Source: Terriglobia bacterium | GTDB lineage: Bacteria; Acidobacteriota; Terriglobia; Acidiferrales; UBA7541 | DNA length: 64,000 nt | NCBI GenBank assembly: GCA_020073705.1 | Contig: JAIQES010000015.1 | Coordinates: forward strand, 1-64,000 | Direction of reading: 5' to 3' | In this document: positions 19,336 to 53,832 of the stretch, piece after piece | How positions within the stretch are numbered: position 1 is the first letter of the stretch | How the letters are laid out: each line of letters opens with the position of its first letter | The notes under the pieces: model-generated | The model's database searches: none | Told to the model about the DNA's origin: nothing | The model's input: only the letters and a program-made list of their open reading frames with translations | Program-made: the position numbers and the translations under genes

Positions 19336-19351
19336 TGGTAGGGTGATTGCA
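19336..19351 (+). promoter_or_regulatory. Sigma-54 type promoter for the sugar transferase gene
   Basis: TGGTAG-GGTGA-TTGCA has GG and GC 12 bases apart, as required for -24/-12 promoters. It lies about 250 bases before the initiating sugar transferase gene. A weak ops-like string, GGCCGCAGCATGT (19392-19404), follows at 41 bases, a distance close to that in the other four units, but differs at two core positions. The upstream 180 bases contain no gene. Confidence 0.6.
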
Positions 19352-19604
19352 GACAAACACTATGTCCTAGCTTCAGTTTCATTAGAAGCATGGCCGCAGC
19401 ATGTTTGTATCCGAACTGGCTGTTTTAGGAAAGGTGGTTTTTCGCTCCAGGCGGTTGACAGCCTGAGCCCGATTGTCGCTCAGGGCGGAGAAAGCAGCAC
19501 GCTTGGAAGCGTGCTGGGCAAAATCCGGTCAACGCTATTATGGCAACTGTCTGAGCGTCGAGGAGGGGAACCTCCACGGAAACACAAATCTCGCGGGAGC
19601 GCAA

Positions 19605-20789
19605 ATGGGAATCAGTCATTCAAAAGTTGCACATCCGACAGAGCAAGGGTCGATCCATGCTGCGGTCCCAAAGAATTCTCATGGTTTTGACCTACGTTCC
19701 GCACATAGAGAGATGACGGCCCTTCCCGAGGAAGCCTTCCATTCCATGTTGATGCTTGAGCGCCGCCGGGCGGAGCGGTCCTCCAAACCATTTGTCCTAA
19801 TGTTACTCGATGCGAATTTCGAAAATGGCTCAGCGGCGAAAATTCTAAACCATGCGCTCGAGGTAATCGTAGTTTCCAAACGAGAGACTGATCTAGTCGG
19901 TTGGTATAAAGAGAGCGCTATTCTTGGCGTCGTCTTCACGGAAGTGAATATGGAGGGGACATGCCCCATCACTGAAATTCTCCGAACAAAGATCGAGGCC
20001 GCTCTTGTTGAGCATCTGGGGCGGGAGAAAGCTGCCAAAATCGCCATTTCTTTTCATGTTTTTCCAGAAAGCTGGGATGGAAATTATTCGGGTTGGGTGG
20101 CGGACTCCAAACTTTATCCCGATCTGAATCGAAAAGTTTCGCGAAAGCGATTTCCTCTTGTTGTGAAGCGCATGATAGATTTTGCCGGCAGCGCAATCTT
20201 ATTGCTGCTGCTGTCCCCAATGCTCGGGGTAATTGCCGCGATCATCAAGTTGACGTCCAAAGGCCCGGTGATTTTCGAGCAGGAACGTCTTGGCCAGTTC
20301 GGAGCGCGCTTCAAGTGCCTGAAGTTTCGTACCATGTACACGAATAATAGTCCGAAGATTCATCAGGAGTACATCCGGCAGTTTATTTCTGGCGTGAAAG
20401 ATTGCGCGAATACGAACAAAGTTCAGGCACCGGTCTACAAGATTACGAACGACCCTCGGGTGACCCCGATCGGCAAGTTCCTGAGAAAGACCAGCCTCGA
20501 TGAGTTTCCTCAGTTCTGGAACGTCCTGCGCGGTGAAATGTCGCTTGTTGGGCCCCGTCCTCCGATTCCCTATGAGTTCGAGATTTATGATATCTGGCAC
20601 CGACGGAGAATACTGGAGGTGAAGCCGGGCGTTACCGGATTGTGGCAAGTGAACGGCCGGAGCCGTATGCGGTTCGACGAGATGGTCCGTTTGGACCTCC
20701 GTTATTGCCAGAACTGGTCTTTGTGGCTCGATCTAAAAATTCTCGTCGCCACGCCCCGAGCTGTTTTCAGCGGGGATGGCGCATGCTGA
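19605..20789 (+). CDS. Initiating sugar phosphate transferase with degenerate GGDEF-like N-terminal domain
   Basis: This 394-residue protein probably starts polysaccharide assembly by moving a sugar phosphate to undecaprenyl phosphate. The C-terminal bacterial sugar transferase domain (about residues 185-390) has one membrane segment (FAGSAILLLLLSPMLGVIAA), then RLGQFGARFKCLKFRTM, RVTPIGKFLRKTSLDEFPQFWNVLRGEMSLVGPRPP and KPGVTGLWQVNGRS. The N-terminal part resembles a GGDEF domain (EEAFHSMLMLERRRAERSS, FVLMLLDAN, RETDLVGWY), but the GGDEF signature is replaced by YKESA, so it is probably a regulatory fold without catalysis. The ATG at 19605 with GGGAG upstream is favoured. It stands alone behind its own sigma-54 type promoter. 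Confidence 0.88.
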   Translation: MGISHSKVAHPTEQGSIHAAVPKNSHGFDLRSAHREMTALPEEAFHSMLMLERRRAERSSKPFVLMLLDANFENGSAAKILNHALEVIVVSKRETDLVGWYKESAILGVVFTEVNMEGTCPITEILRTKIEAALVEHLGREKAAKIAISFHVFPESWDGNYSGWVADSKLYPDLNRKVSRKRFPLVVKRMIDFAGSAILLLLLSPMLGVIAAIIKLTSKGPVIFEQERLGQFGARFKCLKFRTMYTNNSPKIHQEYIRQFISGVKDCANTNKVQAPVYKITNDPRVTPIGKFLRKTSLDEFPQFWNVLRGEMSLVGPRPPIPYEFEIYDIWHRRRILEVKPGVTGLWQVNGRSRMRFDEMVRLDLRYCQNWSLWLDLKILVATPRAVFSGDGAC

Positions 20790-21407
20790 CCTCACAATCT
20801 TCAAGACAAATGGGTAATGGTAATGGGTCATCTCTAACGAGGCAAGGCTCAAAAGGCCTACCGGGAGTTCAGGGACACAAATATCAAATATCATTGATAT
20901 CGTGCTGAACATTGTGGAGGAAGCCGCCGAATATGGTTCGTATTATGGCGGCGATATCCTTGCCTACTCCAAGGATGCGCACAAGTAGAAATACCCCTTT
21001 GCGGCGGAAACCACGCTTAATGGTTTCAATTCTTACCTACGATGACGAATATGGTTGCTCTAGAATATTCTGCATGAATATTGTTTTCAATTACTTACAC
21101 GCTTTTGGCGCATTTTAGTCTAGCATTTCCCCCCATTGGATTGGACGCAAAAAGATAGAAATTTGCACGCATGATGGCATTTGCTTGTTCACGTTGCGCC
21201 GCCATATGGGCCAAACGCTGCAAAACAGGATTTTTTGGAAACAGTTTAGTATATCGTGGAAACGATTTTCTTTCGGCTCAAACTAGCCCCCCGGATAAAG
21301 GACGATGAAGAAATTTGAGCATCTCTATAATTTACGGTAAGTGATTTATTATTAGTGTGATACAGAAGATTAGTGAAACGGTAAGTTCCTTGACATATGT
21401 CCCATTC
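20790..21407. other. Long non-coding stretch upstream of the NusG-paralogue unit
   Basis: About 620 bases separate the sugar transferase gene from the next promoter. No gene with recognisable homology was found. A short frame near 20880-20988 ends in YYGGDILAYSKDAHK but lacks a good start. An AATATT-CTGCATG-AATATT palindrome lies near 21064-21083. AT content rises towards the promoter. The region may hold regulator sites or an undetected small RNA. Confidence 0.4.
21334..21386. repeat. Direct repeat upstream of the sigma-54 promoter
   Basis: ACGGTAAGT occurs at 21334-21342 and again at 21378-21386, exactly 44 bases apart (about four helical turns) and just upstream of the -24/-12 site at 21408. 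It could be a binding site for a regulator or enhancer-binding protein. It could also be chance. Confidence 0.35.
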
Positions 21408-21423
21408 TGGCAGACTGGTTGCA
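21408..21423 (+). promoter_or_regulatory. Sigma-54 type promoter of the NusG-paralogue unit
   Basis: TGGCAG-ACTGG-TTGCA matches the -24/-12 consensus (TGGCAC-N5-TTGCW) with correct spacing. It would drive the NusG paralogue followed by the first WbpB/WbpD/WbpE set. The predicted start site is near 21434, about 20 bases before the ops-like element at 21454. Confidence 0.75.
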
Positions 21424-21453
21424 CATTAATCCTCGCTACCATGTTGCATTAAT

Positions 21454-21466
21454 GGCGGTAGCTTAT
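21454..21466 (+). promoter_or_regulatory. ops/JUMPstart-like element 1
   Basis: GGCGGTAGCTTAT, preceded by TTAAT, matches the enterobacterial ops core GGCGGTAGCNT exactly. It lies 32 bases after the -12 GC and 63 bases before the NusG paralogue ATG, so the regulator may act on its own transcript. Copies lie at 25771, 50611 and 53820. Confidence 0.75.
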
Positions 21467-21529
21467 ATAGAGACCAGCTTTCCCTTCCATTAGTACGATA
21501 GCTGGAGAAAAGGGAGGCTCAAAGATTTC

Positions 21530-22096
21530 ATGAGTCCAGAAATCAAGGGCGAACAGTGGTATGCGCTCCAAGTGAGGAGCCGCTGGGAAAGATCAACCGC
21601 CACGCTCCTGAGCGGGAAGGGCTATGAGACCTTATTGCCAACCTACAAGTCGAAGCGGCGCTGGAGCGGTAGGCTGAAAGAAGTAAGTGCTCCGCTGTTT
21701 CCGGGTTACGTGTTCTGTTCTTTTGACGTTTTCAAGCGGCTCCCGATTCTGGTAACACCTGGAGTGATCGCTGTTGTCGGCAGAGGCCGCGTGCCTGTGC
21801 CAATGGAAGCTTCCGAAATCTCAGCCATCCAAGCGCTTGTTTCCTCCGGGCTACATGCTGAACCCTATCCCTATCTGGAGGTAGGGCAGAAAGTTCGCAT
21901 TGAAAGCGATGCTCTGCGCGGCGTGGAGGGAATCTTGATCGCATTCAGAGGGAGCCGGCGGATCGTGGTTTCGGTGTCCTTATTGCGTCGATCCGTAGCC
22001 TTGGAAATTGACCGGGCTCGCGTCATCCCTGTCCGTGGAACGACTCTGCTGGATCCGCCAACCTCGCAGTCATTGCTTGACGGTGCGATCGCATAA
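21530..22096 (+). CDS. NusG paralogue (RfaH/UpxY-like antiterminator)
   Basis: This 188-residue protein is a specialised NusG paralogue. The NGN domain (about residues 8-115) has WYALQVRSRWERS, LLPTYKSKRRWSGRLKEVSAPLFPGYVF and TPGVIAVVGRGR. The linker and KOW domain (about 128-178) have VGQKVRIESDALRGVEGILIAF. The PLFPGYVF segment is typical of RfaH, UpxY and LoaP-like proteins encoded in polysaccharide loci. Such proteins bind RNA polymerase at a loading site and let it pass terminators in long operons. Ops-like elements start four operons here, including this one. GGGAGG lies 15 bases before the ATG, rather distant. A housekeeping NusG role is unlikely because no SecE or ribosomal genes are nearby. 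Confidence 0.9.
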   Translation: MSPEIKGEQWYALQVRSRWERSTATLLSGKGYETLLPTYKSKRRWSGRLKEVSAPLFPGYVFCSFDVFKRLPILVTPGVIAVVGRGRVPVPMEASEISAIQALVSSGLHAEPYPYLEVGQKVRIESDALRGVEGILIAFRGSRRIVVSVSLLRRSVALEIDRARVIPVRGTTLLDPPTSQSLLDGAIA

Positions 22097-22346
22097 CAGT
22101 AGAGCTGATTCATGTGGTAGTCGGGTCCAGAGTTCTCGTATCAAGCAACGGTTGGGCCGTGTTCTCGGGTGACGGTGCCTGCTTACATCCGAGCGTCGGT
22201 ATTTCCGCAGACGACGTTTGAACTTCTGAGATGTATTCCTAATTTTCTAAATCCGTCTCGATGGTGAACACGCTACCGAATGGGTCTGAAGGAGCCATCC
22301 GGAAATCACTTCTAGTTCAATTCCCTTTTCCCATCACAGGAGAGCC

Positions 22347-23348
22347 ATGATCAGAGTCGGCGTTATCGGTTACGGCTACTGGGGCCCTAATATCGTCAGG
22401 AATCTCCACGCATTGGACTCCACGCACGTCGAAGCCGTTTGCGACAAGAGCGAAGCAGCGCTTTCTCGCGTACGGAAATCCTATCCGGGCGTGAAAACGT
22501 GCCTGGATCCCTCCGAAATCCTAACCTCGCCCGCGATCGATGCTGTGGCGGTCATTACTCCCGTTTGGACTCATTACGAACTGGCCAAGGCGGCGTTGCA
22601 AAATGGGAAGCACGTCTTCGTCGAGAAGCCATTCACCTCGAATGCGAAGCAGGCGGAGGAATTGATCGAACTCGCGGCGCGGAAGAACCTCACGATCATG
22701 GTGGACCATACGTTCTTGTTCACCGGGGCGGTCCGCAAGATCTGCGAGCTGACGGAAAGCGGAGCTCTGGGGGATTTGTATTACTACGATTCTTTGCGAA
22801 TCAATCTGGGATTGTTCCAGCACGATGTCAGCGTAATTTGGGATTTGGCCCCGCATGACCTGTCGATCATGGACCATCTGATCAAGGGCGACCCTGAGGC
22901 TATTGTCGCCACCGGAGAGAAGCACCTGAACGGAGTGGAAGATGTCGCGTTCATGACGATTTATTTCCCTGGGAGCGTTATCGCGCACATCAATGTAAAC
23001 TGGCTCTCACCGGTGAAGATCCGAACGACGCTGATCGGTGGACAGAAGAAGATGCTGGTCTGGAACGATCTCGTGGCGGATGAAAAGATCCGTGTGTACG
23101 ACAAGGGAGTTCAAATCACTTCAGGGGATGGAATTCGAGACCTGCTGGTGAATTACAGGACCGGCGATATGTGGGCGCCGCAGGTGCAACAGTTGGAAGC
23201 CCTCCGTGTGGAGCTGGATTACTTTGCCGACTGCATCACGAATAATAAGACTCCTTTCAACGACGGCCACGCCGGACTGCGCGTCGTGCGGATGCTGGAA
23301 GCGGCTGAAAAGTCGATTCAAAAAAGGGGGGAGTTGATACGCCTGTGA
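22347..23348 (+). CDS. Gfo/Idh/MocA oxidoreductase, WbpB-like (copy 1)
   Basis: This 333-residue NAD-dependent oxidoreductase opens with VGVIGYGYWGPNIVRNL (Rossmann GxGxxG) and has KHVFVEKPFTSN (EKP motif) and IWDLAPHDLSIMDHL (catalytic-type His). The family member WbpB oxidises UDP-GlcNAcA at C3 before amination, and the next two genes complete that module (WbpD and WbpE types). GGAGAG precedes the ATG. Its stop overlaps the next GTG start. It differs clearly from the second WbpB-like domain at 26973, so this is not a recent tandem copy. Confidence 0.87.
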   Translation: MIRVGVIGYGYWGPNIVRNLHALDSTHVEAVCDKSEAALSRVRKSYPGVKTCLDPSEILTSPAIDAVAVITPVWTHYELAKAALQNGKHVFVEKPFTSNAKQAEELIELAARKNLTIMVDHTFLFTGAVRKICELTESGALGDLYYYDSLRINLGLFQHDVSVIWDLAPHDLSIMDHLIKGDPEAIVATGEKHLNGVEDVAFMTIYFPGSVIAHINVNWLSPVKIRTTLIGGQKKMLVWNDLVADEKIRVYDKGVQITSGDGIRDLLVNYRTGDMWAPQVQQLEALRVELDYFADCITNNKTPFNDGHAGLRVVRMLEAAEKSIQKRGELIRL

Positions 23349-23854
23349 ACGAATTTTGCTCGATTACACCCGACGTGAAGCTTGGCAAAGGTGTCAAGCT
23401 GTCCAAATTTATCAACCTGTACGGCTGCGAGATTGGCGATAACACGAAGATTGGTGCATTTGTTGAGATTCAGAAGAATGCAAAGGTGGGCCAAAACTGC
23501 AAGATTTCAAGCCACACGTTTATTTGTGAAGGGGTGACCATTGAAAACGATGCGTTCATTGGTCATGGCGTTACATTTATCAATGATATCTATCCCCGTG
23601 CCACGAACTCGGACGGCCACTTGCAGACAGAGAGCGACTGGAAAGTCGATCGGACACTGGTGAAGAAAGGGGCCTCTGTCGGCTCAGGGGCTACGATTCT
23701 CTCCAATGTTGTGATCGGCGAAAACGCGATCGTTGGCGCGGGCAGTGTGGTGACCCGCGATGTGCCGCCCAACGTCATTGTGGCCGGAAACCCGGCCCGC
23801 ATTTTGCGCGCGATAAAATCCGAAACTACCGCGGAAGTGAGGACCAACGAATGA
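23345..23854 (+). CDS. Left-handed beta-helix acetyltransferase, WbpD-like
   Basis: This 169-residue protein is built from hexapeptide repeats (IGDNTKIGAFVEIQKNAKVG, IGHGVTFIND, SGATILSNVVIGENAIVGAGSVV), giving a trimeric left-handed beta-helix acyltransferase. It ends with DVPPNVIVAGNPARI, the family's closing motif. WbpD acetylates the 3-amino group of UDP-2-acetamido-3-amino uronic acid. The GTG start overlaps the WbpB-like stop (GTGA) and its own stop overlaps the aminotransferase ATG, so the three genes are coupled. The equivalent domain is fused to WbpB in the second set. Confidence 0.88.
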   Translation: MNEFCSITPDVKLGKGVKLSKFINLYGCEIGDNTKIGAFVEIQKNAKVGQNCKISSHTFICEGVTIENDAFIGHGVTFINDIYPRATNSDGHLQTESDWKVDRTLVKKGASVGSGATILSNVVIGENAIVGAGSVVTRDVPPNVIVAGNPARILRAIKSETTAEVRTNE

Positions 23855-25056
23855 CGCAAAATGGAAAGATTCCGTTTGTTGATCTCGTTATACCCCATCG
23901 GGAACTGCAGGAGGAACTCGTAGCCGCTTTTCGAGCGGCACTCGATACAGCCGGCTTTATCGGCGGTCCGGCCGTGGAAGGATTCGAGCGCGAATTTGCC
24001 GCTTTTTGCGACACCAAGCACTGCGTGGGAGTCTCCAGCGGCACGGATGCCTTACGGTTCGCTCTGATCGCCGCCGGCGTCAAGGCCGGACATGTTGTTC
24101 TTACCGTGCCTCTGACGTTTATCGCCACTACAGAGGCCATTTCTCAGGCGGGCGCTCTGCCCGATTTCATCGACATTGACCCGCGCACCTACACGATGGA
24201 CCCGGAAAAACTCCGCCAGTATCTTGAAACGCACTGCGTCTTGGATCCCAAGACGGGGCAATACGTTCATCGGGTTCTGGGACGACCCGTAACGGCCGTT
24301 GTTCCGGTTCACCTCTACGGTCAGAGCGCGGACATGGATCCGATTCTCGCGCTGGCCGAGCGTTACAAGCTGATGGTCATCGAAGACGCTTGCCAGGCGC
24401 ACGGCGCCGAATATTTCTCGAAGAAAGAGAACCGCTGGCGCAAGGCTGGTTCCATGGGGCAAGCGGCCGCGTTCAGCTTTTATCCAGGCAAGAATCTGGG
24501 CGCCTGCGGCGAAGGTGGTTCGGTAACGACAAACGATGAAGGGCTGGCGCGCAAAGTTAGCATGTTGCGGGATCATGGCCAGTCCAAAAAGTATTACCAC
24601 GACATTGAGGGCTATAACGGCCGGCTTGACGCCATCCAGGCGGGCATCCTGCGAGTCAAGTTAAAGCACGTGTCTCTCTGGAATGAACAGCGCCGGATAT
24701 GCGCGCGTCGTTACAACGAACTACTTGCACCCATGAAGGGACTCATCGGTATACCGTACGAACCTTCCTGGTCCAAACCGGTGTATCACCTGTACGTGAT
24801 CCGCATAGCCTACCGTGAGGAGCTGCAAGAGCACCTAACGCACGCCGGAATCGGAACTGGAATCCATTATCCCATTCCAGTTCATCTTCAAAAGGCCTAT
24901 GCATCACGGAACTGGAACCGTGGTGACTTCCCCGTGTCTGAGGAGGCCGCGGACCAGATTCTTTCTCTGGCCATGTATCCCAGCCTGCAATCGCACCAGC
25001 AGAGTCGGGTGGCCGAGGCAATTGCTGAGTTTGCTCAGATTCACTCTGTCATTTAG
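23851..25056 (+). CDS. DegT/DnrJ/EryC1/StrS aminotransferase, WbpE-like (copy 1)
   Basis: This 401-residue PLP-dependent sugar aminotransferase has GVSSGTDALRFALIAAG, VIEDACQAHGAEY and FSFYPGKNLGACGEGGSVTTND, where the Lys of PGKNLGA forms the Schiff base with PLP. In this context it would aminate the 3-keto sugar made by the WbpB-like enzyme. It starts at an ATGA overlap. The sequence holds an insertion (KKENRWRKAGSMGQ) relative to the second copy at 28678. An IS256-type remnant begins 2 bases after its stop on the other strand. Confidence 0.92.
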   Translation: MTQNGKIPFVDLVIPHRELQEELVAAFRAALDTAGFIGGPAVEGFEREFAAFCDTKHCVGVSSGTDALRFALIAAGVKAGHVVLTVPLTFIATTEAISQAGALPDFIDIDPRTYTMDPEKLRQYLETHCVLDPKTGQYVHRVLGRPVTAVVPVHLYGQSADMDPILALAERYKLMVIEDACQAHGAEYFSKKENRWRKAGSMGQAAAFSFYPGKNLGACGEGGSVTTNDEGLARKVSMLRDHGQSKKYYHDIEGYNGRLDAIQAGILRVKLKHVSLWNEQRRICARRYNELLAPMKGLIGIPYEPSWSKPVYHLYVIRIAYREELQEHLTHAGIGTGIHYPIPVHLQKAYASRNWNRGDFPVSEEAADQILSLAMYPSLQSHQQSRVAEAIAEFAQIHSVI

Positions 25057-25058
25057 TT

Positions 25059-25581: not shown

Positions 25582-25610
25582 GCGGGAAAATAGTAGAAAT
25601 AGTTTTCCGC
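25582..25610. promoter_or_regulatory. Conserved upstream inverted repeat (candidate enhancer site)
   Basis: GCGGGAAAA and TTTTCCGC flank an 11-base TAGTAGAAATA-type centre. A close copy (GCGGGCAAATAGTAG onward) lies at 50422-50450. Both end 110-114 bases before a -24/-12 promoter, where enhancer-binding proteins of sigma-54 promoters usually bind. Further similarity (TTAACCCCTGNATTT) occurs between site and promoter in both places. Confidence 0.5.
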
Positions 25611-25719: not shown

Positions 25720-25735
25720 TGGCAGCCTGATTGCA
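25720..25735 (+). promoter_or_regulatory. Sigma-54 type promoter of the 20-kb central operon
   Basis: TGGCAG-CCTGA-TTGCA matches the -24/-12 consensus with correct spacing. It precedes a run of genes from 25893 to 45525 with gaps mostly under 60 bases (largest about 135), probably one very long transcript. An ops-like element follows at 25771. Confidence 0.77.
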
Positions 25736-25770: not shown

Positions 25771-25783
25771 GGCGGTAGCTTAT
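25771..25783 (+). promoter_or_regulatory. ops/JUMPstart-like element 2
   Basis: TTTAAT-GGCGGTAGCTTAT-GTAAACC; the core is identical to element 1 over 13 bases and extends on both sides (TTAAT before, TA and CC after). It lies 37 bases after the -12 GC and 109 bases before the first start codon of the longest operon. Confidence 0.77.
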
Positions 25784-25892: not shown

Positions 25893-26951
25893 ATGCAAAT
25901 GAAGATTATGACCATCGTAGGGGCGCGGCCTCAGTTTATCAAGGCTGCGGCGGTAAGCCGGGAACTGCGGAAACGGCACCAGGAGATATTGGTGCATACG
26001 GGACAGCACTATGACTATGAAATGTCCGGCATATTCTTTGACGGGCTGGAGATATCGCCGCCCGATGTGAACTTGAATGTCGGCTCTGGTTCACATGGAA
26101 CCCAAACCGGCGCCATGCTCCAGGGAATTGAACATCTGTTGCTTGCTGAACGGCCGGACTGGCTCCTCGTGTATGGCGATACGAACTCCACTCTAGCCGG
26201 CGCCCTGGCCGCCTCAAAACTGTCCGTGCCCATAGTCCACATCGAAGCCGGACTGCGAAGTTTCAATCGTTGTATGCCGGAAGAGATCAACCGCGTCGTG
26301 GCGGATCATCTGTCGAACCTGCTGCTTTGCCCGAGCGACACGGCCGTCAGTAACCTGGCTGCTGAAGGCATTTCGCGAAACGTGCGCGTCGTCGGCGATG
26401 TAATGCTGGACGTCCTGAACTGGGCCAGAGCACGCGCGGGCGCAAAACCGCCTGAAATTCTGAACCGCCTTGGCTTGAAGAGGAACGCTTACTTGCTGGC
26501 GACTGTGCACCGCAGCGAAAACACGGATGATCTGGCGCGGCTTTCGCACATTCTGAATGCGTTTAATTCTCTCGACGAACCGATAGTCTTCCCTGTTCAT
26601 CCGCGTGCGCGCAAAGCCATCTCCGGGGCGGATTGCCGGCTGAAACCTCACGTCCACTTGATCGATCCTGTGGGCTACCTCGACATGATAAGCCTGACAG
26701 GCTCCGCACGGTTGGTTCTTACAGACTCGGGCGGTTTGCAGAAGGAGGCTTATTGGTTGGGTGTGCCTTGCCTCACACTGCGGGATGAAACGGAATGGGT
26801 GGAGACTGTGGAAGCGGGCTGGAATACTTTGGTGGGATCTGACACGGAGAGAATTGTCGCGACGGTGCATTCATTTGCTCCCATTAATTCCCATCCGGCT
26901 CTTTACGGAGACGGACGGGCAGCGGCCAGGTGCGTTGATTTACTGGAGTAA
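25893..26951 (+). CDS. UDP-GlcNAc 2-epimerase family enzyme (WecB/WbpI type)
   Basis: This 352-residue epimerase has IVGARPQFIKAAAV at the N terminus, VYGDTNSTLAGALAA, VHIEAGLRSFNRCMPEEINR, ATVHRSENTDD and LTDSGGLQKEAYWLGVPCLTLRDETEW, all hallmarks of the non-hydrolysing UDP-GlcNAc 2-epimerases. Beside two WbpB/D/E sets it is best read as the WbpI-type enzyme that turns UDP-2,3-diacetamido glucuronic acid into the manno form. Standard WecB activity cannot be excluded. It is the first gene after a sigma-54 promoter and ops-like element. No strong ribosome site was seen; an ATG 6 bases downstream is possible. Confidence 0.92.
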   Translation: MQMKIMTIVGARPQFIKAAAVSRELRKRHQEILVHTGQHYDYEMSGIFFDGLEISPPDVNLNVGSGSHGTQTGAMLQGIEHLLLAERPDWLLVYGDTNSTLAGALAASKLSVPIVHIEAGLRSFNRCMPEEINRVVADHLSNLLLCPSDTAVSNLAAEGISRNVRVVGDVMLDVLNWARARAGAKPPEILNRLGLKRNAYLLATVHRSENTDDLARLSHILNAFNSLDEPIVFPVHPRARKAISGADCRLKPHVHLIDPVGYLDMISLTGSARLVLTDSGGLQKEAYWLGVPCLTLRDETEWVETVEAGWNTLVGSDTERIVATVHSFAPINSHPALYGDGRAAARCVDLLE

Positions 26952-26972
26952 GTCCCCGAAAGGAAAGAATCC

Positions 26973-28703
26973 ATGCGAAACGGAACAAATGGCGCGTCAA
27001 CAAACGGAAGGTCCAAGGTCAACGTAGCGGTCGTCGGCGTCGGTTACTGGGGCAAGAATCTCGCTCGGAATTTTCATGAACTTGGCGCACTAGGAGTACT
27101 CTGCGACGCGGAAAGATCGGTCGAGGCGGCGTGCAAAGACCGTTACGAGGGTATCAAGTTCTGCTCAGAATTCACGGAGGTCCTCCGCGATACTTCTGTC
27201 CACGCCGTGGTGTTGGCCACGCCCGCAGTGAGCCACTATGAAATGGCCAAGGCAGCGCTTGAAGCCGGGAAGGACGTTCTCGTCGAGAAGCCATTGGCTG
27301 TTGACGTGACGCACGGTGAAGACCTCGTAAAACTTGCCGAGGCTAAACACCGAATCCTGATGGTGGGTCACATTCTCCGGTATCATCCTGCAATCCTACA
27401 ATTGCAGAAGCTGATTCATGACGGCGCTCTTGGAAAGATCAGCTATTTATATTCCAATCGTTTGAACATCGGGAAAATACGGAGTGAGGAGAATATTCTC
27501 TGGAGCTTTGCCCCACACGATATCTCCGTGGTGCTGTCACTCCTCAATGAAATGCCGACTCGCGTTACTTGCCAGGGCGGTGCTTATCTGAATCGCGACA
27601 TTCCCGATGTCACCTTGAGTCACTTCGACTTCCCAAGCGGAGTCCAGGCCCACATTTTCGTCAGCTGGTTACATCCGATCAAAGAGCAACGACTCGTGGT
27701 TGTTGGATCGGAGAAGATGGCCGTTTTCGATGACACAGCGGAACATAAACTTGTTCTGTACCCTCATAAAGTCGAGTGGATAAATCGAATCCCGACTGCG
27801 GTTAAGGCGAAGGGCGAAATCGTCGATTTGGAGGATCAGGAACCACTACGGGCGGAATGTCAGCACTTCCTCGACTGTGTGGAGTCCAGAACTTCTCCCG
27901 TGAGCAACGGCGCGGAAGGACTCCGGGTCTTGCGAGTATTGGATGCCTGTCAACGTGCGCTGGTGAACGGAGGAATTACTCTAGAACCGTCCAACTCTAA
28001 ACCCGAACCGGAGAAAGAACAACTGCCTTACTTCGCGCACGAATCCGCCTATGTGGACAAAGGGGCTGAGATTGGCGCCGGCACAAAGATCTGGCATTTC
28101 TCTCACGTCATGAAAGGCGCCCGAATCGGGGAGCGCAGCGTCATCGGCCAAAACGTGAACGTCGACGCCGGAACAACGATCGGAAACAACGTCAAGATTC
28201 AAAACAATGTTTCGGTTTATACCGGCGTGGTGATTGAAGATGACGTGTTTCTCGGTCCTTCATGTGTCTTGACAAACGTCACGAATCCCCGGTCGCAGGT
28301 AAACAGACACTCCTTGTACGAGACCACGTTGTTGAAGCGCGGGTGTACGATTGGCGCCAATGCGACTATCGTCTGCGGAGTCACGATTGGGCGCTACGCG
28401 TTCGTCGGTGCTGGCGCGGTGGTCACCAAGAACGTGCCCGATTTTGCATTGGTCGTCGGGAATCCAGCCCGCCAAGTGGGGTGGGTGAGTCGTCATGGGC
28501 ACCGACTCGAGTCGCCCGATTCGAATGGGGTGATGGTGTGCGCAGAGAGTGGCTACCGTTACCAGGAAAGCGCGCCCGGCGTTCTGCGGTGTTTGGATTT
28601 GAATGAAGAAGCGCCGCTGCCGGCGGAACTGAGCAAGGGCACCAAGTCCTACAGACAATTGAAAGAGGAGGCTAAGTATGTTGGTACCGCTACTCGATCT
28701 TAA
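26973..28703 (+). CDS. Fused WbpB-like oxidoreductase and WbpD-like acetyltransferase
   Basis: This 576-residue protein joins two enzymes. Residues about 15-335 form a Gfo/Idh/MocA oxidoreductase ([44 protein letters not shown]). Residues about 355-500 form a left-handed beta-helix ([61 protein letters not shown]). A C-terminal tail carries a short Cys-containing segment ([21 protein letters not shown]). The fusion couples oxidation and N-acetylation of a uronic acid sugar with amination by the next gene, whose start overlaps by 26 bases. AAAGGAAAG precedes the ATG. Confidence 0.92.
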
Positions 28704-29862
28704 GGCGCAGTACGCGACAATTAAAGCCGAGGTCCATGCTGCGATCGCAGAGGTAATGGAGTCCCAGCACTTTATCTTGGGACCGAAAGTGGAAGAGTGC
28801 GAGAAGGCGATCGCGTACTACAGCGGCAGCTCATACGCAATCGGGGTTTCGTCGGGTAGCGATGCCCTGTTGGCCTGTCTGATGGCCGAAAACATTGGCC
28901 CCGGCGATGAAGTGATCACCACTCCGTACACATTTTTTGCCACGGTCGGTGCCATTGCCCGCCTGGGAGCCACTCCCGTGTTCGTTGACATCGACCCATT
29001 GACCTACAACATAGATGTATCCCAGATTTCTTCCAAGGTGACCTCCAGAACCCGTGCGATCATCCCGGTGCACCTGTACGGCCAAATGGCCGATATGGAG
29101 GCTGTGATGGCCGTGGCTGAGAAATACGGGCTCGTCGTCATCGAAGATGCCGCCCAAGCGATCGGCGCAGAGTACAAGGGCCGGCGGGCCGGTAGCATCG
29201 GAAACTACGGATGTTTTTCGTTCTTCCCTTCAAAGAACCTCGGAGCCGCCGGCGATGGGGGGATGGTCGTCACCAACGACGCTCAGCGTGCGGAAAGGCT
29301 GAAGTGCCTGCGCGGTCACGGCTCCAAACCGAAATACCATCACAAGATTGTTGGCGGCAATTTCCGGCTCGACGCCATCCAGGCGGCCATTGTATCGGCG
29401 AAGCTGCCTCACCTTGACAAATGGACTGCGGCCCGTCAACGCAACGCGAAAATGTACGACAAGCTCTTCTCAGGAGCGGGAGTGGCGATGAATGCAAGTG
29501 GATCAGGACACGTTGGGTTGCCTAGAGTCGTCATGAACCGGCACATATTCAACCAATACGTGATTCGTGTTTCACGCCGCGACGAGTTGCAGGCCGCATT
29601 GAAGAAGCGAGGGATAGGCACCGAGGTCTATTACCCCGTTCCCATGCACGTGCAAGAGTGCTTTGCTTATTTGGGGAAAAAGGCTGGTTCGTTCCCCGAA
29701 AGCGAGCGGGCAGCCAGAGAGACATTAGCGCTTCCCATTTATCCGGAGCTCTCTGAAGCGCAACTTTGCTATGTGGTTGAGTGCGTCTGCGATTTCTTTG
29801 CTGCGGGAGCATCTTCCAACCAGACCGCCCCAGAGGCCGTGGGATCTCAATTAAAGCGTTGA
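28678..29862 (+). CDS. DegT/DnrJ/EryC1/StrS aminotransferase, WbpE-like (copy 2)
   Basis: This 394-residue PLP aminotransferase has [59 protein letters not shown] and [22 protein letters not shown] (PLP Lys in PSKNLG). It overlaps the fused WbpB-WbpD gene by 26 bases, with GAGGAG inside that gene before its ATG. It completes the second set for a diacetamido uronic acid. It is clearly diverged from copy 1. The two may serve different 3-keto sugars, or one may be a remnant of locus mixing. Confidence 0.93.
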
Positions 29863-29866
29863 TTCA

Positions 29867-34250: not shown

Positions 34251-34270
34251 TGCCGAATGACAGGGGATCC

Positions 34271-35347: not shown

Positions 35348-35467
35348 ACTTTTTGCAATCACTTGCTCGCTGTGGCCTTATCCTGCCGCTGGAGAACCGT
35401 CGATCAGTAAGTTTGCTAAAAGTTTCAGACTAGGAGTGGCGGCACACCGTGCTTGCGATCAGATGCA

Positions 35468-37677: not shown

Positions 37678-37713
37678 GATGTACGTCAGAGCTAAACTCC
37701 AGGAGGGGTTTGC

Positions 37714-38736: not shown

Positions 38737-38870
38737 CGCGAATTTCGTAGGCGACGTCATCATTTCCGATGCACGATGAAAGCAAGTCTCTGAGATTGGG
38801 TGAGGCGACGCCTAGAGAGTTTTCTTCATCGTTCTCATTTTATACGGGCACTGAATAACATGGAGTGCTA

Positions 38871-40187: not shown

Positions 40188-40278
40188 TCTTGGTGCTGGC
40201 AGCCACCCACATCGCCCGCCCGATTAAGCACCGAGATGACTCGGTTAGGTGTGGGCGAGAATCCTTTCCTGGAACGCG

Positions 40279-41184: not shown

Positions 41185-41232
41185 CATGGACGTAAGGGCC
41201 ACACCTACGACCGAGATACGGAGCGCACAACG

Positions 41233-42189: not shown

Positions 42190-42195
42190 GAACCG

Positions 42196-44070: not shown

Positions 44071-45525
44071 ATGTCCCCGCAGATCGCCGCTATTGTTTGC
44101 GTTGTTGGGATCTTAGGACTCTTCGTCCTCGATCGCGACAGTGAGTCCCGGACTTCCACTGCCCTTTGGCTTCCGGTGGTGTGGCTGTGGATTATCGGGT
44201 CGCGAGAGGTATCTCAGTGGCTAGCTGTGTTTGGTATTGGAAAGCGAGCAGGAGAAATCGGCGGACAGGACCACCTTGAAGGCAGCCCTGTTGACGCCTG
44301 GTTGTTTACAACGCTGTTGTTTCTTGGCGTAGTCGTCCTTGTAAAAAGAGGACCTGTCGTCGTGCGGCTGCTGCGGGCGAATGCACCGATCCTCTTGTTC
44401 TTCCTCTATTGCGGCTTGAGCGTCCTCTGGTCCGACTACCCAGGCGTTGCGTTTAAGCGGTGGTTCAAGGCCGTGGGCGATATAGTCATGGTCTTAATTG
44501 TCCTGACCGATCCGGACCGGCTCGCTGCGCTCAAGCGGGTCCTCTCACGGGTGAGTTTTCTCCTCATACCCCTATCCATTCTGCTTATCAAGTACTTCCC
44601 CGAGGTGGGAAAGGCATTCAAGCATTATGGTGTGGCGGATTACTTCGGCGTCACAACGAATAAGGGCCTCCTCGGAGCAACCTGCCTGATCTTCGGACTG
44701 GGATCCCTGTGGCGTTTTCTCGCCGCATACCTGAACCGAGGAATCGCACACCGGACCCGACACCTAGTCGTTCACGGTGCCCTGCTGGTGATGGTGCTGT
44801 GGCTCTTTTCGATGGCCCGCTCGATGACCAGCCTGGCCTGTTTCCTGCTGGGAAGCTCGCTCATCGTGGCAACGAGCTTTCGTGCCGTAGTTCGGAGGCC
44901 TTCGGTCGTGCACTTCTTCGTAACGGCAGTGGTGCTCATTCCCTTCTCTGTATTGATCTTAGGTGTCGGTGGGGGGGAGACCCTGGAGGCAATCGGAAAG
45001 GACTCGACGCTCACCGGTCGGACTAACATCTGGCATCTGGTGCTCAGCCTGAGCGGCAATCCGTTATTGGGAACCGGGTTCGAGAGCTTTTGGCTCGGGC
45101 CCCGGCTTGAGAAGATTTATAGCGCCTACTGGTGGCATCCGAATGAGGCCCACAACGGCTACATAGAAGTCTATTTGAACCTTGGATGGATTGGATTGGC
45201 CCTGCTGGCCACACTTATAGTTACGGGTTATCGAAAAGTCATCCGCGGGCTTCGTCTGGATCTGGATATAGGTAGGCTGATGCTCGCCTATTTTGTTGTC
45301 GCGCTGGTGTACAGCTTCACTGAAGCCGGGTTCAGGATGCTGAGCCTCACAATGGATTTCTTTCTTATGGCGATGATGTCACTTCCTGCGGCCCCCGTCC
45401 CGGAGGCTTCAGTTTGGGGTCAACGCCGCGTTGACACGCGCGACCTCGTCGAGAGCCTGTCTGCACACCCGACCACGCACCTTGCTGCGCGGCTCACAGG
45501 CAACCAGTTGGTGAGGAAAAGATGA
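44071..45525 (+). CDS. O-antigen polymerase/ligase family membrane protein (Wzy/WaaL type)
   Basis: This 484-residue integral membrane protein has about ten to twelve hydrophobic segments. The conserved O-antigen ligase/polymerase stretch is near residues 305-370: STLTGRTNIWHLVLSLSGNPLLGTGFESFW, then HPNEAHNGYIEVYLNLGWIGL, where EAHNGY is the family's periplasmic loop motif. It would polymerise repeat units or transfer the chain. AVLWSDYPGVAFKRW-type motifs early on (LSVLWSDYPGVAFKRWFK) also fit. It begins right after the asparagine-synthase-like stop and ends the central operon except for a truncated gene. Confidence 0.9.
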   Translation: MSPQIAAIVCVVGILGLFVLDRDSESRTSTALWLPVVWLWIIGSREVSQWLAVFGIGKRAGEIGGQDHLEGSPVDAWLFTTLLFLGVVVLVKRGPVVVRLLRANAPILLFFLYCGLSVLWSDYPGVAFKRWFKAVGDIVMVLIVLTDPDRLAALKRVLSRVSFLLIPLSILLIKYFPEVGKAFKHYGVADYFGVTTNKGLLGATCLIFGLGSLWRFLAAYLNRGIAHRTRHLVVHGALLVMVLWLFSMARSMTSLACFLLGSSLIVATSFRAVVRRPSVVHFFVTAVVLIPFSVLILGVGGGETLEAIGKDSTLTGRTNIWHLVLSLSGNPLLGTGFESFWLGPRLEKIYSAYWWHPNEAHNGYIEVYLNLGWIGLALLATLIVTGYRKVIRGLRLDLDIGRLMLAYFVVALVYSFTEAGFRMLSLTMDFFLMAMMSLPAAPVPEASVWGQRRVDTRDLVESLSAHPTTHLAARLTGNQLVRKR

Positions 45526-47560: not shown

Positions 47561-47597
47561 TTGGTCTCCTAAACGCCCGGATGGATTAGCCACCCGT

Positions 47598-47628
47598 CTC
47601 ACACTTGCGTGAGAGTAAAGCAATTATA
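47598..47628 (-). promoter_or_regulatory. -10 box and stem-loops in the leader of the beta-helix gene
   Basis: Read leftward, TATAAT (47623-47628) is followed by CTCAC-GCAAGT-GTGAG (47598-47613) and then GGGTGG-CTAAT-CCATCC (about 47580-47595), two adjacent hairpins before the ribosome site. No good -35 was seen. The leader is compact and structured, but it does not match a riboswitch class that I know. Confidence 0.35.
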
Positions 47629-47979: not shown

Positions 47980-48007
47980 GGGGCCCGAAGTCGAGAGCCG
48001 CTTCTTT

Positions 48008-50421: not shown

Positions 50422-50450
50422 GCGGGCAAATAGTAGTAATACTTTTTCGC
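50422..50450. promoter_or_regulatory. Second copy of the conserved upstream inverted repeat
   Basis: GCGGGCAAATAGTAG followed by TAATACTTTTTCGC matches the site at 25582-25610 at most positions. It ends 113 bases before the -24 element at 50564, against 109 bases in the other copy. This is a candidate binding site for a sigma-54 enhancer-binding protein. Confidence 0.5.
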
Positions 50451-50563: not shown

Positions 50564-50579
50564 TGGCATGTTGATTGCA
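50564..50579 (+). promoter_or_regulatory. Sigma-54 type promoter of the epimerase-flippase unit
   Basis: TGGCAT-GTTGA-TTGCA matches the -24/-12 consensus with correct spacing, in the 496-base gap after the deacetylase-like gene. Nothing else coding was seen in that gap. Confidence 0.73.
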
Positions 50580-50610
50580 TCATGGGAAATGTGGTTTTGA
50601 CCATATCCAA

Positions 50611-50623
50611 GGCAGTAGCTTAT
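50611..50623 (+). promoter_or_regulatory. ops/JUMPstart-like element 3
   Basis: GGCAGTAGCTTAT-CTACACC differs from elements 1 and 2 by one base in the core (A for G at position 4). It lies 33 bases after the -12 GC and 152 bases before the epimerase ATG. A second partial copy, GGCGGTAG, occurs at 50743-50750. Confidence 0.68.
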
Positions 50624-50775: not shown

Positions 50776-51825
50776 ATGAGAATACTGTTGACTGGCCATA
50801 AAGGTTATATCGGCGGAGTGGCGCGGCCAATGCTGCGTTCCGCCGGACATGAAGTGGTCGGCCTCGACACGGATCTCTTCGCGGGTTGCGATTTCGGGCA
50901 ACCCACCCTAGAGATTCCCGAGGTTCGCAAGGACCTCCGTAACCTGACGAAGGCTGACCTCGAGGGTTTCGATGCTGTGGTGCATTTGGCCGCATTATCG
51001 AATGATCCCCTGAGCGACCTCAATCCCGGCCTTACCTATGACATTAACTACAAAGCATCCGTGCGGCTGGCCGAACTGGCTAAGCAGGCGGGCGTACAGC
51101 GCTTCGTCTTCTCCTCCTCTTGCAGCACTTACGGTTCGTCCGGTGACGTGTTCCTCGACGAATCAGGCGCGCTCAATCCTGTGACTCCTTATGGCGAATC
51201 CAAGGTTTTGTTCGAGCGCGACGTAGCGCGGCTGGCAGACGATCACTTCAGCCCGACTTATATGAGAAATGCGACTGCCTACGGTGTGTCTCCGCGCCTC
51301 CGGCTGGACCTGGTGTTGAACGACTTTGTGGCGGCGGCGTTTACTACTGGCCGCATTTATATTAAGAGTGACGGTACGCCCTGGCGTCCGATCGTGCACA
51401 TTCGCGACATCATCGCGGCCATGCTGTGCGTCCTTGAGGCTCCCCAAAGCGCCATCCATAATGCGACCTTCAACGTCGGCCAGACGCAGGAAAACTACCG
51501 CATCAGCGAACTGGCTGACATCGTCGCTGAAACCGTGCCCGGCTCCCACATTGAGTATGCTCCCGGCGGCGGCCCTGACAAGCGCTGCTACCGCGTCAAT
51601 TGCGACAAGATCCGGAGCGTACTGCCCGACTTCCGACCGCAGTGGACAGCTCGCACGGGTGCGCAAGAGCTCTATGACGCCTATCGCGCCGCTGGACTCA
51701 CCTCTGAAGATGTGAAAAGCGGCCGCTATTTCCGGATTAACCACATCCAGCGCCTACTGAAAGCCGGGCAGTTGGACACTTCACTGCATTGGCAAGTACC
51801 GCAGGATATGGCAATATCGTCCTGA
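50776..51825 (+). CDS. NAD-dependent sugar epimerase/dehydratase (extended SDR)
   Basis: This 349-residue extended short-chain dehydrogenase has [12 protein letters not shown] (NAD-binding GxxGxxG), [27 protein letters not shown] and YGESKVLFE (catalytic YxxxK, with Ser in the SCS segment). The C-terminal half has [17 protein letters not shown] and [19 protein letters not shown], which bind the nucleotide sugar. The exact sugar reaction (4-epimerase, 4,6-dehydratase or reductase) is not clear. A strong GGGGAGG precedes the ATG. It is the first gene of its unit, followed after about 160 bases by the flippase. Confidence 0.88.
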
Positions 51826-51989
51826 TTGTGCCGTGAAACGCCGGTTCTTCAGCGATAGACAAGGATTCTCTCGTCTCCCATGAACTCAGGGCTTCCGGAG
51901 CGAGTGCGTCACCGGTATCAATACAATGAAGTTAGCCTCGATTTTCCTTTATCTATGTCCGGCTAGAATTTGACGATTCGGTGTTTCTT

Positions 51990-53552
51990 ATGATGGGTGA
52001 AAAGTTAAGCTCAACAGCCCGTAAGCTGCTCTCGGGCTCCGTGCTCCGACTGGCTAACCTTGTCGCAGCAGGCGCATCTTCGTTTCTCCTCATGCCGTTC
52101 ATTGTGCATCACCTCGGGGATCGTCTTTATGGATTCTGGACCCTCGCAGCTGCATTCATCGGCTATTACGGTGTACTAGATTTCGGTATCACAAGCGCCG
52201 TCTCTCAATACATATGTGTAGCGATCGGGCGCAACGATCAGTCCGAGTGCCGTACTGTTTTTAACACGGCTTTTCGCATTCAGTCGTTGATAGGAGGCGT
52301 TGCCCTGCTCGTGACCGCTGCAATAGCAGCCGCCGCTCCATGGTTCTGCCATAATCCTACCGATGCCGCTCTATTCCGGAAAGTTATCATTATCCTGGGT
52401 GTGAATATGGCAATTGGGTTTCCGGTGCGAACTTTTGCGGGCGTTCTAGAGGCTCAACTACGATTTGATGTTCAGTCCGGACTCGGAATTTTTGGATTAG
52501 CGCTGCGCTCAGGATTGATGGTGTGGGCGATCTTAAAGGGCGGCGGGCTGCTTGCATTGGCTTGGATGGTGTTATTTGCGACTGTTCCGGTGATCATCCT
52601 GCAGATCTGGTTTGCGCGGCGGGAGGCCCCATGGGCTCGAATCGATCATTCGCCCGTCGGGTCGAAAATAGCCAAACGCCTTTTTTCCTACAGCATCTAT
52701 ACCTTTCTGGGGATGATCGGGGACATGTTCCGGTTTCAACTAGGTCCTGCTGTCATCGCGAGTTTCATTGGGTTGGCGGCCGTCACACACTACAGAGTTG
52801 CCAGCGTATTTACATCCTATTACGTTAATTCCGTAATCTGTGCAGTAGGCATGGTTCAGCCGGTTTTGAGCCGGCTTCACGGCGCGCAGGACCGAAATGG
52901 CCTCGAGAAAGTATTTTTCTTCGCGACAAGAGCCTCACTTTGCATCTCCATTTTTATCGGCTTCAGCCTCATCGGTTGGGGAAAACCATTCATCGCTCGC
53001 TGGATGGGCCCGAAATATCAGGACGCATACTGGCCGCTAGTGGCTTTATCGCTCGCGGTCCTGCTTGACGTAGGCCAGTCTCCATCAATAAACATGCTGT
53101 ATGCCACGTTTAAGCATCGATTCTATACATACTTAAATTGCGCAGAGGGCCTTATCAATCTGGTGTGCAGTTTGTTGCTGGTTCGACCCCTTGGAGTTCT
53201 TGGCGTGGCGCTGGGCATGTTGATTGGAGCATTTCTTATTCGTATCGTGGCGCAGCCGTTTTGGGTGTGCAAGGTTAGTGGACTCCACTTCGGCGATTAC
53301 ATGAGATTTATGGGAAACACTGTGCTCCGCTGCTCGTGTCTCATGGGTGCAGTGATTGCGATTGTGTCCTGGGGTTTGAGACCGAGCTACCCTTGGTTGG
53401 TCGGTTCCGCGATTTGCGCTACAGCGACCTATGCAGCAGGATCTTGGTTTTTTGTCTTCAATCAGCGAGAACGTGAACAATTGCTTTCGGTCGTAACCCG
53501 TCGCAGCCATGAACAGGCCAAGTTGGCATCGATCAGCGCGGCAATTCAATGA
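51990..53552 (+). CDS. Wzx-type polysaccharide flippase
   Basis: This roughly 520-residue integral membrane protein has twelve or more hydrophobic segments (for example VAAGASSFLLMPFIVHHL, FWTLAAAFIGYYGVLDFGITSAVSQYI, VALLVTAAIAAAAPWF, LCISIFIGFSLIGWGKPFIARWMG). The N-terminal helix pair with LGDRLYGFWTLAAAFIGYYGVLDFGI is typical of MATE-like O-unit translocases (Wzx/RfbX). It would flip lipid-linked repeat units to the periplasm for the Wzy-type polymerase. The start is uncertain; a GTG 9 bases upstream or the next ATG are alternatives, and no strong ribosome site is present. Confidence 0.88.
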   Translation: MMGEKLSSTARKLLSGSVLRLANLVAAGASSFLLMPFIVHHLGDRLYGFWTLAAAFIGYYGVLDFGITSAVSQYICVAIGRNDQSECRTVFNTAFRIQSLIGGVALLVTAAIAAAAPWFCHNPTDAALFRKVIIILGVNMAIGFPVRTFAGVLEAQLRFDVQSGLGIFGLALRSGLMVWAILKGGGLLALAWMVLFATVPVIILQIWFARREAPWARIDHSPVGSKIAKRLFSYSIYTFLGMIGDMFRFQLGPAVIASFIGLAAVTHYRVASVFTSYYVNSVICAVGMVQPVLSRLHGAQDRNGLEKVFFFATRASLCISIFIGFSLIGWGKPFIARWMGPKYQDAYWPLVALSLAVLLDVGQSPSINMLYATFKHRFYTYLNCAEGLINLVCSLLLVRPLGVLGVALGMLIGAFLIRIVAQPFWVCKVSGLHFGDYMRFMGNTVLRCSCLMGAVIAIVSWGLRPSYPWLVGSAICATATYAAGSWFFVFNQREREQLLSVVTRRSHEQAKLASISAAIQ

Positions 53553-53721
53553 ATAAGATGATCGCTGACAGTGTCTGCCACGTCTTGCTAGAGATTGCAT
53601 CGTCTTGACGAATCCGTTCGCACATTGTAGTAACAGTTTTCCCTCGTATGGGCAATAGAAACGATCCGTATCAGAGACATAGCTAGATCCCCTCAGCCTA
53701 CCTCTAACCAATTTGCTGTCA

Positions 53722-53752
53722 ATAGGTTAGCTATACTTTTCGATGAACCTAT
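53722..53752. repeat. Inverted repeat upstream of the last sigma-54 promoter
   Basis: ATAGGTT (53722-53728) and AACCTAT (53746-53752) form perfect 7-base arms around a 17-base centre, 20 bases before the -24 element. It could bind a regulator, or form a terminator-like hairpin for the flippase transcript, although no T-run follows. Confidence 0.35.
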
Positions 53753-53771
53753 CGACTCATTTTCGGCACTC

Positions 53772-53787
53772 TGGTAGCCCGATTGCA
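53772..53787 (+). promoter_or_regulatory. Sigma-54 type promoter of the last unit
   Basis: TGGTAG-CCCGA-TTGCA has the -24/-12 GG and GC at the right distance. It lies in the 416-base gap between the flippase and the epimerase genes and is followed by an ops-like element at 53820. No gene was seen in the gap. Confidence 0.7.
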
Positions 53788-53819
53788 CATATTCCAATGG
53801 ATGTGCTGGTGACATTAAT

Positions 53820-53832
53820 GGCGGTAGCGTAT
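53820..53832 (+). promoter_or_regulatory. ops/JUMPstart-like element 4
   Basis: TTAAT-GGCGGTAGCGTAT-CTGGAG; its first eleven bases, GGCGGTAGCGT, equal the E. coli ops sequence (GGCGGTAGCGTG...). It lies 34 bases after the -12 GC and 136 bases before the next start codon. Confidence 0.77.

Follow-up and report, generated by a model that had tools for sequence, protein, structure and literature searches.

A candidate two-layer regulon of sigma-54 promoters and ops-type elements in a polysaccharide locus of an acidobacterium with a UpxY-like NusG paralogue

Introduction

NusG paralogues paired with a signal in the leaders of long operons are the closest described counterparts of the system reported here, which lies on a stretch of DNA of 64,000 nucleotides (nt), hereafter the window, from a Terriglobia bacterium of the phylum Acidobacteriota (GenBank assembly GCA_020073705.1, contig JAIQES010000015.1, positions 1 to 64,000). 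Five units of a polysaccharide locus in this window start with sigma-54-type −24/−12 promoters, four of them followed by an element resembling the ops signal of Escherichia coli, and one unit is headed by the gene of a NusG paralogue, P0001.

In Bacteroides, such operons reportedly have one UpxY paralogue each. Saba et al. reportedly found in 2024 that UpxY reads non-template DNA together with the upstream duplex at the paused polymerase, with help from RNA hairpins. UpxY provides the closest model for the window's paralogue, whose gene likewise heads a polysaccharide operon; unlike in the Bacteroides arrangement, a single paralogue in the window goes together with four elements spread across 34 kb and with sigma-54 promoters bearing an enhancer-like site. 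Sigma-54 control of the cell exterior is said to have been set out by Francke in 2011, and sigma-54 on exopolysaccharide genes is reportedly a known theme.

As described in the accessible part of PMC5995543, RfaH of E. coli contacts only the loop of the ops element, base-specifically at G5 and T6, on top of a C3:G8 pair, with pausing effects scored at U11. The window resembles this system in its GGCGGTAG core, in its pause-type bases (a pyrimidine, Y, at position 11 and a purine, R, at position 12), in the placement of the element at the start of long surface-polysaccharide operons and in the NusG paralogue. It differs in that its paralogue scores far under the RfaH cut-off, does not conserve the ops-reading pocket or E48, has a KOW domain predicted as beta and is encoded in its own regulon, and in that the promoters are of the sigma-54 type with an enhancer-like site and the ops-type element lies 31–36 nt behind the −12 box. 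LoaP of Bacillota also joins a NusG paralogue to a leader signal before long operons; unlike the window's system, LoaP binds an RNA hairpin (accessible part of PMC12691694), and P0001 falls under the LoaP cut-off. The recruitment of paralogues other than RfaH is called unclear in the accessible part of the same article, and that of NusG paralogues encoded in their own operons is called unknown in the accessible part of PMC7593976.

In the open-access literature, we found no description of sigma-54 and ops in one promoter type, of the enhancer-like site or of an element family with a fixed register and a changing loop. An earlier note, made from the letters of this DNA, had thought the system new, which holds for the combination as far as that literature goes, but not for its parts: RfaH/ops, UpxY antitermination and sigma-54 control of exopolysaccharide are each known.

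Results

Three elements recur at the locus in fixed order and with narrow spacing—an enhancer-like site, a sigma-54 promoter and an ops-type element—and they are accompanied by conservation in relatives and by a shared gene context. It is quite probable that the locus forms a single regulon controlled at two levels, sigma-54 at initiation and the ops-type element with the paralogue at elongation. Its features are as follows, with positions counted from the first letter of the window and, for the ops-type elements, from the predicted transcription start.

19185..19199, +, enhancer-like upstream site of unit 1, GTGGCAATATTTTTC (motif and pattern search)
19336..19350, +, sigma-54 −24/−12 promoter of unit 1 (exact pattern match)
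19392..19400, +, degenerate ops-like stretch GGCCGCAGC, doubtful (position weight matrix 8.5 bits, gap 41)
19473..20789, +, unit 1, polyprenyl glycosylphosphotransferase (Bac_transf; longest frame, start codon uncertain)
21256..21270, +, enhancer-like upstream site of unit 2 (motif and pattern search)
21408..21422, +, sigma-54 promoter of unit 2 (exact pattern match)
21454..21465, +, ops-type element GGCGGTAGCTTA of unit 2 (predicted +21 to +32)
21530..22096, +, NusG paralogue (UpxY-like) P0001, 188 amino acids (aa), heading unit 2
22347..25056, +, remainder of unit 2: Gfo/Idh/MocA oxidoreductase, hexapeptide transferase, DegT aminotransferase (Pfam)
25593..25607, +, enhancer-like upstream site of unit 3 (motif and pattern search)
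25720..25734, +, sigma-54 promoter of unit 3 (exact pattern match)
25771..25782, +, ops-type element GGCGGTAGCTTA of unit 3 (predicted +26 to +37)
25893..45525, +, unit 3, about 20 kb (operon extent inferred from gene order and strand): UDP-GlcNAc 2-epimerase, glycosyltransferases, UDP-sugar dehydrogenase, asparagine-synthase-like, O-antigen ligase-like and other genes
45707-47623, −, pectate-lyase-like gene within the polysaccharide locus, lying between unit 3 and unit 4
50433..50447, +, enhancer-like upstream site of unit 4 (motif and pattern search)
50564..50578, +, sigma-54 promoter of unit 4 (exact pattern match)
50611..50622, +, ops-type element GGCAGTAGCTTA of unit 4, with A as fourth base (predicted +22 to +33)
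50776..53552, +, unit 4: nucleoside-diphosphate (NDP)-sugar epimerase, flippase-like polysaccharide protein
53627..53641, +, enhancer-like upstream site of unit 5 (motif and pattern search)
53772..53786, +, sigma-54 promoter of unit 5 (exact pattern match)
53820..53831, +, ops-type element GGCGGTAGCGTA of unit 5 (predicted +23 to +34)
53969..63053, +, unit 5 (operon extent inferred from gene order and strand): RmlC-type epimerase, DRL oxidoreductase, amine oxidase family, glycosyltransferases, alcohol dehydrogenase, nucleotidyltransferase, PIG-L deacetylase

The five −24/−12 sites on which the earlier note had built are all exact matches to TGGYA-N6-TTGC. Alone, with at most one mismatch, this pattern is about as common in the window as chance predicts (26 matches against 25.0 expected), and the 13-mer alone, with at most two mismatches, is not rare there (9 against 5.7). 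The 13-mers behind four of the promoters are GGCGGTAGCTTAT (21454, 25771), GGCAGTAGCTTAT (50611) and GGCGGTAGCGTAT (53820), with GGCGGTAGC or the variant GGCAGTAGC as core; their gaps from the C of TTGC (31, 36, 32 and 33 nt) agree with the 32–37 bases past the −12 GC given in the note, as does the near-perfect ops core, which is exact at three of the four sites and has G4 changed to A at one. The C3:G8 pair and the G5/T6 loop, taken as ops features from the accessible part of PMC5995543, are present in the window's elements. A genome-wide search proposed in the note was run on the assembly (3.79 Mb, 78 contigs, 97% complete) and found the element to be non-random: GGCGGTAGCTTAT with at most one mismatch has exactly four copies, those four (14 for the reversed pattern), and the composite of a −24/−12 promoter followed at 31–36 nt by GGCRGTAGC likewise has four, all in the locus (reversed control, 0). 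Unit 1 (promoter at 19336) has only the degenerate GGCCGCAGC, at 8.5 bits compared with 14.9–26.2 bits in the other four. The extent of unit 3 needs one correction: it ends near 45525, after about 20 kb, because the minus-strand pectate-lyase-like gene comes next.

All five promoters carry an enhancer-like site, GTRGHAANNNTTTTY, 112–137 nt upstream of the −24 box. A 24-nt motif trained on the regions upstream of 31 promoters (26 from relatives, five from the window) exceeded 7 bits at 30 of them; in 29 it lay on the same strand, and in 28 its start fell between −165 and −130 relative to −24. Five shuffled sets given the same training had 10–24 above 7 bits, with only 0–3 inside that interval. 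When GTRGHAANNNTTTTY was sought 110–140 nt before TGGYA-N6-TTGC, exactly the five promoters were returned from the window's own genome; the pattern had been designed to cover those five sites, so the information lies in the lack of further matches. Across the order sample, which comprised 95 genomes of Candidatus Acidiferrales, the same pair of signals occurred at 24 sites in 14 genomes (one, L258, perhaps by chance) with a control of 0/95, and it was found in none of 198 other genomes of the phylum. An ops-type core follows at 13 of the 24, once as GGCAGTAGC and once as GGCGTTAGC. The genome itself has one rpoN and 19 strong matches to sigma-54 activators, so that TGGYA-N6-TTGC, an upstream activator-type site and rpoN are all found together. 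We read the GTRGHAANNNTTTTY motif as a putative activator site that completes the promoter.

Seven enhancer promoters without an ops-type core were scanned, and all precede sugar genes (hexapeptide transferase, Gfo/Idh/MocA, polysaccharide deacetylase; one hexapeptide transferase has an aminotransferase behind it). Seven ops-less enhancer promoters (L251, L256, L257, L259, L267, L268, L272) share a TAAGTYAYTKATTTT-like stretch about 40–60 nt past −12, which may be a further leader signal.

In the order sample, with the reversed composite pattern as control, the composite was found at 35 sites in 26/95 genomes. A stricter form was absent from 395 genomes of the phylum outside the order and present at three sites in the window's own genome (396 scanned). 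Sites identical to two of the composite loci occur in the metagenome-assembled genomes (MAGs) Candidatus Acidiferrales bacterium JOPF097 and Candidatus Acidiferrum typicum, from which the order is taken to be Candidatus Acidiferrales. Conservation was counted at 30 of the 35 sites, leaving out three set aside as likely chance (L008, L011, L023) and two for which no locus was fetched (G082, G083). Conservation extends to positions that the search pattern did not specify: A directly before TTGC in 26/30 and a purine one base further upstream in 29/30; T before GG in 24/30, a pyrimidine at position 11 in 30/30 and a purine at position 12 in 29/30. The spacer from −12 to the element was 31–34 nt at 16 sites, 36–37 at three and 40–44 at 11. 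As a side observation, this spacer is bimodal over the order-level sites L009–L037, with modes at 31–34 and 40–44 nt, about one helical turn apart.

In relatives, the composite recurs before sugar genes or the NusG-paralogue gene. The first gene past it is a NusG paralogue at 13 sites, the own genome included, and at nine others examined it is sugar-type: three NDP-sugar epimerases, a Gfo/Idh/MocA oxidoreductase, an RmlC, a sugar transferase, a FemAB/GNAT protein, a methyltransferase and one more with weak pectate-lyase, glycoside-hydrolase and C5-epimerase scores. Five sites (L015, L016, L024, L029, L036) have no annotated first gene, mostly for short contigs. The composite also tracks the window-type paralogue, here a best E of at most 1e-45 among the matches listed, being present in 22 of 44 genomes with it and in 4 of 51 without (Fisher p 5e-6; 20/44 and p 3e-5 after removal of two chance-looking sites).

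A scan of the GTDB collection (84,980 species) returned 29 stretches with the composite, 11 of them from Acidobacteriota. Of the 18 from other phyla, 11 sit within an open frame of at least 60 aa on the same strand, the one strand checked, so we took them as chance; with 7–8 chance matches estimated from base counts, a few may be real. One intergenic composite lies in Nitrospinota (L071), where the next gene is FAD oxygenase-like. In a Hyphomicrobiales MAG (L086, 3658-3722), an intergenic sigma-54 site with GGCGGTAGCGT is followed by a PEP-CTERM-type glycosyltransferase-like gene, by chance or as a parallel case.

Unit 2 is indeed headed by a NusG-family gene, the first gene of a polysaccharide operon, and the three genes after it are sugar enzymes by Pfam. 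With regard to the label "RfaH/UpxY-like", P0001 comes nearest to the UpxY model, slightly short of its cut-off (NF033644; 93 bits, cut-off 100), and scores far under the RfaH cut-offs (69 bits against 144.5 for TIGR01955; 51.9 against 124 for NF006534). LoaP was rejected as well (NF033641; 55.3 bits, cut-off 125), and the NusG model gave 37 bits with a cut-off of 135.7. The genome's two other paralogues pass the UpxY model at 118 and 129 bits; among relatives, L059 lies above the cut-off (114.6) and L039 below (91.3). K10 of RfaH, aligned with R16, is the sole ops-reading position with a similar residue in P0001, and the place of RfaH E48 is taken by A. An AlphaFold model predicts the KOW domain as beta, not as the autoinhibited alpha-helical form (block predicted local distance difference test, pLDDT, 77–87); built from 8 sequences, the whole model has a pLDDT of 64.9, and only its KOW part was used. 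A fold search with the model found the NusG family at low template-modelling (TM) scores, which are low because the two-domain model is poor. On the model scores, the unconserved pocket residues, the A at E48 and the predicted beta KOW, we describe P0001 as a UpxY-like specialised NusG, just under the model cut-off, and not as an RfaH.

Paralogue-like proteins were found in at least 80 of the 95 order genomes at E 1e-6, the weakest matches being probably housekeeping NusG. In a leader set of 92 paralogue genes, the best-ranked among the matches listed, GGCG-N1..2-AGC lies within 250 nt upstream of 74, compared with 3/92 on the reverse strand and 5/92 at 250–450 nt upstream. Sigma-54-like sites occur in 27 of the 92, all within the window's clade; among the 65 leaders with no recognisable sigma-54 site, 56 bear the ops-type element. 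By this distribution, the ops-type element goes with the paralogue. Outside the order, GGCG-N1..2-AGC precedes 13 of 69 UpxY-like paralogues examined (10/16 in the same class, 3/53 elsewhere), and over 70 rows, one from the window's own genome included, the element was found 14 times forward and 4 times in reverse.

A tree of 93 rows was built by a quick maximum-likelihood method; many of its inner branches stay open, and it includes some near-copies. On it, elements with a two-base loop (55 rows counting near variants, and mostly GT) all fall inside one clade, the window's, with a Shimodaira–Hasegawa-like approximate likelihood ratio (SH-aLRT) support of 99, and those with a one-base loop (22 rows) fall outside it. 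Loop length therefore requires a single change on the tree, a count that left out 14 element-less rows and in which L164 was mislabelled AG, its hairpin-linked element being GGCGAAGC; all loop labels, element-less rows included, require 13 changes against a mean of 34.5 for shuffled labels. Position 11 from GG is a pyrimidine in 51/51 two-base and 22/22 one-base elements, and position 12 a purine in 39/51 and 22/22, with L159 (too little downstream sequence) and near variants left out. The distance from GG to the expected pause is therefore constant while the loop loses one base. The two-base loop is GT in 46/51. The bases that vary among paralogue clades are those that RfaH reads, and the constant ones belong to pause and pair. 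In the genome of the window, one paralogue is of the two-base kind and two are of the one-base kind (C28, C62); exact matches to the fuller leader pattern of C28 and C62 are limited to those two genes, a third match having two mismatches.

Two further leader features were noted. Several leaders among L040, L041, L045, L046 and L049 contain an inverted repeat (as CCGTGA...TCACGG), with a TAGCTG stretch behind it in L040, L041 and L045. In the other paralogue clades, L002 (C62), L003 (C28), L158, L162, L164 and L176 share GTCAC...CCCTGTRAGTGAC-N-GGGCGRAGC, in which nested or pseudoknotted pairs are conceivable just upstream of the one-base-loop element. Rfam gave no match for leaders L002, L003, L005 and L006. 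Identity with an Rfam riboswitch or JUMPstart was rejected, as no match in the window, L005 or L006 reached the gathering score and a below-threshold search of 27 loci gave one weak JUMPstart match.

Discussion

Activator binding, transcription start, pausing, paralogue recruitment, antitermination and processivity are what we infer from this arrangement. In the first layer, a sigma-54 activator would bind 112–137 nt upstream of −24 and fire the five promoters together. Sigma-54 transcripts are usually taken to start about 12 nt past the C of the −12 box. Polymerase on four of the units would then meet the ops-type pause element (GGCRGTAG-C-N-Y-R) at predicted +21 to +37 and, on the assumption of that start, would hold about 31–36 nt of RNA at element position 11. 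The paused polymerase would take up the NusG paralogue, which would travel with it through the polysaccharide operons, including one of about 20 kb, and suppress polarity or termination there; our best inference is that P0001 works like RfaH at the ops pause. Unit 2 both encodes the paralogue and bears the element, so the paralogue would feed back on its own operon in a self-reinforcing manner. Short unit 1, with its one sugar-transferase gene, has the same promoter type and no good ops element.

Several observations weigh against such a regulon. The RfaH ops-reading residues H20, R23, Q24 and R73 align with L26, G29, K30 and P77 in P0001, so the pocket is not conserved. Ten reversed-composite matches, in 10 genomes, were found in the order, and some of the 35 sites are therefore chance; 4 of the 51 genomes without a window-type paralogue nonetheless have a composite site. 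None of the 19 activator matches lies on the window's contig. Close paralogue genes in five relatives (L040, L041, L045, L046, L049) have sigma-54 and no ops core upstream, so feedback through the paralogue leader is not universal; four of these five have the composite elsewhere in the genome (G016, G017, G019, G021). Finally, 11 of the 24 enhancer-plus-sigma-54 sites lack an ops-type core, which, with the 56/65 sigma-54-less leaders that bear one, shows sigma-54 and ops to be separable modules. The interpretation in the earlier note is supported in amended form: the paralogue is UpxY-like, sigma-54 and ops are separable, and an enhancer-like site completes the promoter.

How the elements relate to their paralogues can be read in more than one way. 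The chances seem about evenly balanced that ops-type elements are a diversified address code sending several NusG paralogues per cell to different operons free of crosstalk. The constant frame G1 G2 C3 G4 ... A G C ... Y11 R12 would set the pause and a mini-hairpin of non-template DNA, and the loop would carry the address: bases 5-6 as GT, TT, TA or AT within one clade of paralogues, and just one base, A or G, in the others. GGCG-loop-AGC might instead be a mere strong consensus pause, the paralogue having no DNA specificity and acting in cis through being produced beside its targets, a mode proposed for monomorphic RfaH proteins, with loop differences left by phylogenetic inertia. The pause-type pyrimidine at position 11 in 73/73 elements, the lack of conservation of the RfaH pocket and E48 and the beta KOW domain of the AlphaFold model all suit this explanation, as do monomorphic RfaH homologues which, in the accessible part of PMC13015549, act without ops, lack some ops-binding residues and adjoin their targets. 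A free pause, however, needs neither a near-fixed GT loop (46/51) nor the single switch in loop length found on the tree of paralogues, and elements lie up to 32 kb from the paralogue gene, or on another contig in some relatives (e.g. G033); we regard this explanation as unlikely.

A role of the conserved stretch in the RNA, be it as a JUMPstart-like leader structure, as a terminator or in the control of translation, instead of one in the non-template DNA, seems to us very improbable. Minimum-free-energy folds of the 36 nt before GG do place the end of the last pair 0–5 nt from GG in 43/54 two-base and 19/23 one-base leaders, mean folding-energy z values are −0.89 and −0.42, respectively, and the weak JUMPstart match, by our reckoning, overlaps the L141 element (22.6 bits, E 0.48, gathering score 35). 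Yet Rfam gave no match at gathering score in the window, L005 or L006, JUMPstart (RF01707) had none up to E 5 in 20 other leader loci, the window's leaders provide only 20–25 nt of RNA before the element, and the fold before it in unit 2 is weak (L038, −2.7 kcal/mol). Nor was covariation seen in the ungapped register of 22 chosen leaders (45.5% of cells paired against 44.7% shuffled), a weak test in that the leaders were hand-picked from 77 for hairpin-like looks and vary in loop length; slid controls scored equal to or higher than the true register, and the energies lean towards a hairpin. That the element is a functionless passenger of a recent duplication of one leader is scarcely credible: near-identical leaders do occur in the close pairs L048/L050 and L122/L127, but flanks and spacers diverge while core, register and unsearched positions stay, which already contradicts it, the sites precede unrelated first genes, and the core is kept before paralogues down to 43% identity.

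A regulon of this kind would place activator-driven sigma-54 initiation and pause-dependent elongation side by side in the same promoters, outside Proteobacteria and with the exact sites named. In an element family whose pause register stays constant while its loop varies, the targeting of paralogues to operons could be tested by swaps of one or two bases; if such elements have already been described in Bacteroides, the loop observation is a parallel case.

Neighbouring genes

Upstream of the locus, on the minus strand at 9463-17469, the window encodes a RACo-type reductive activator, a B12-binding protein, a URO-D-family protein, a pterin-binding protein and MTHFR, a cluster that looks like a corrinoid methyl-transfer (demethylation) system.

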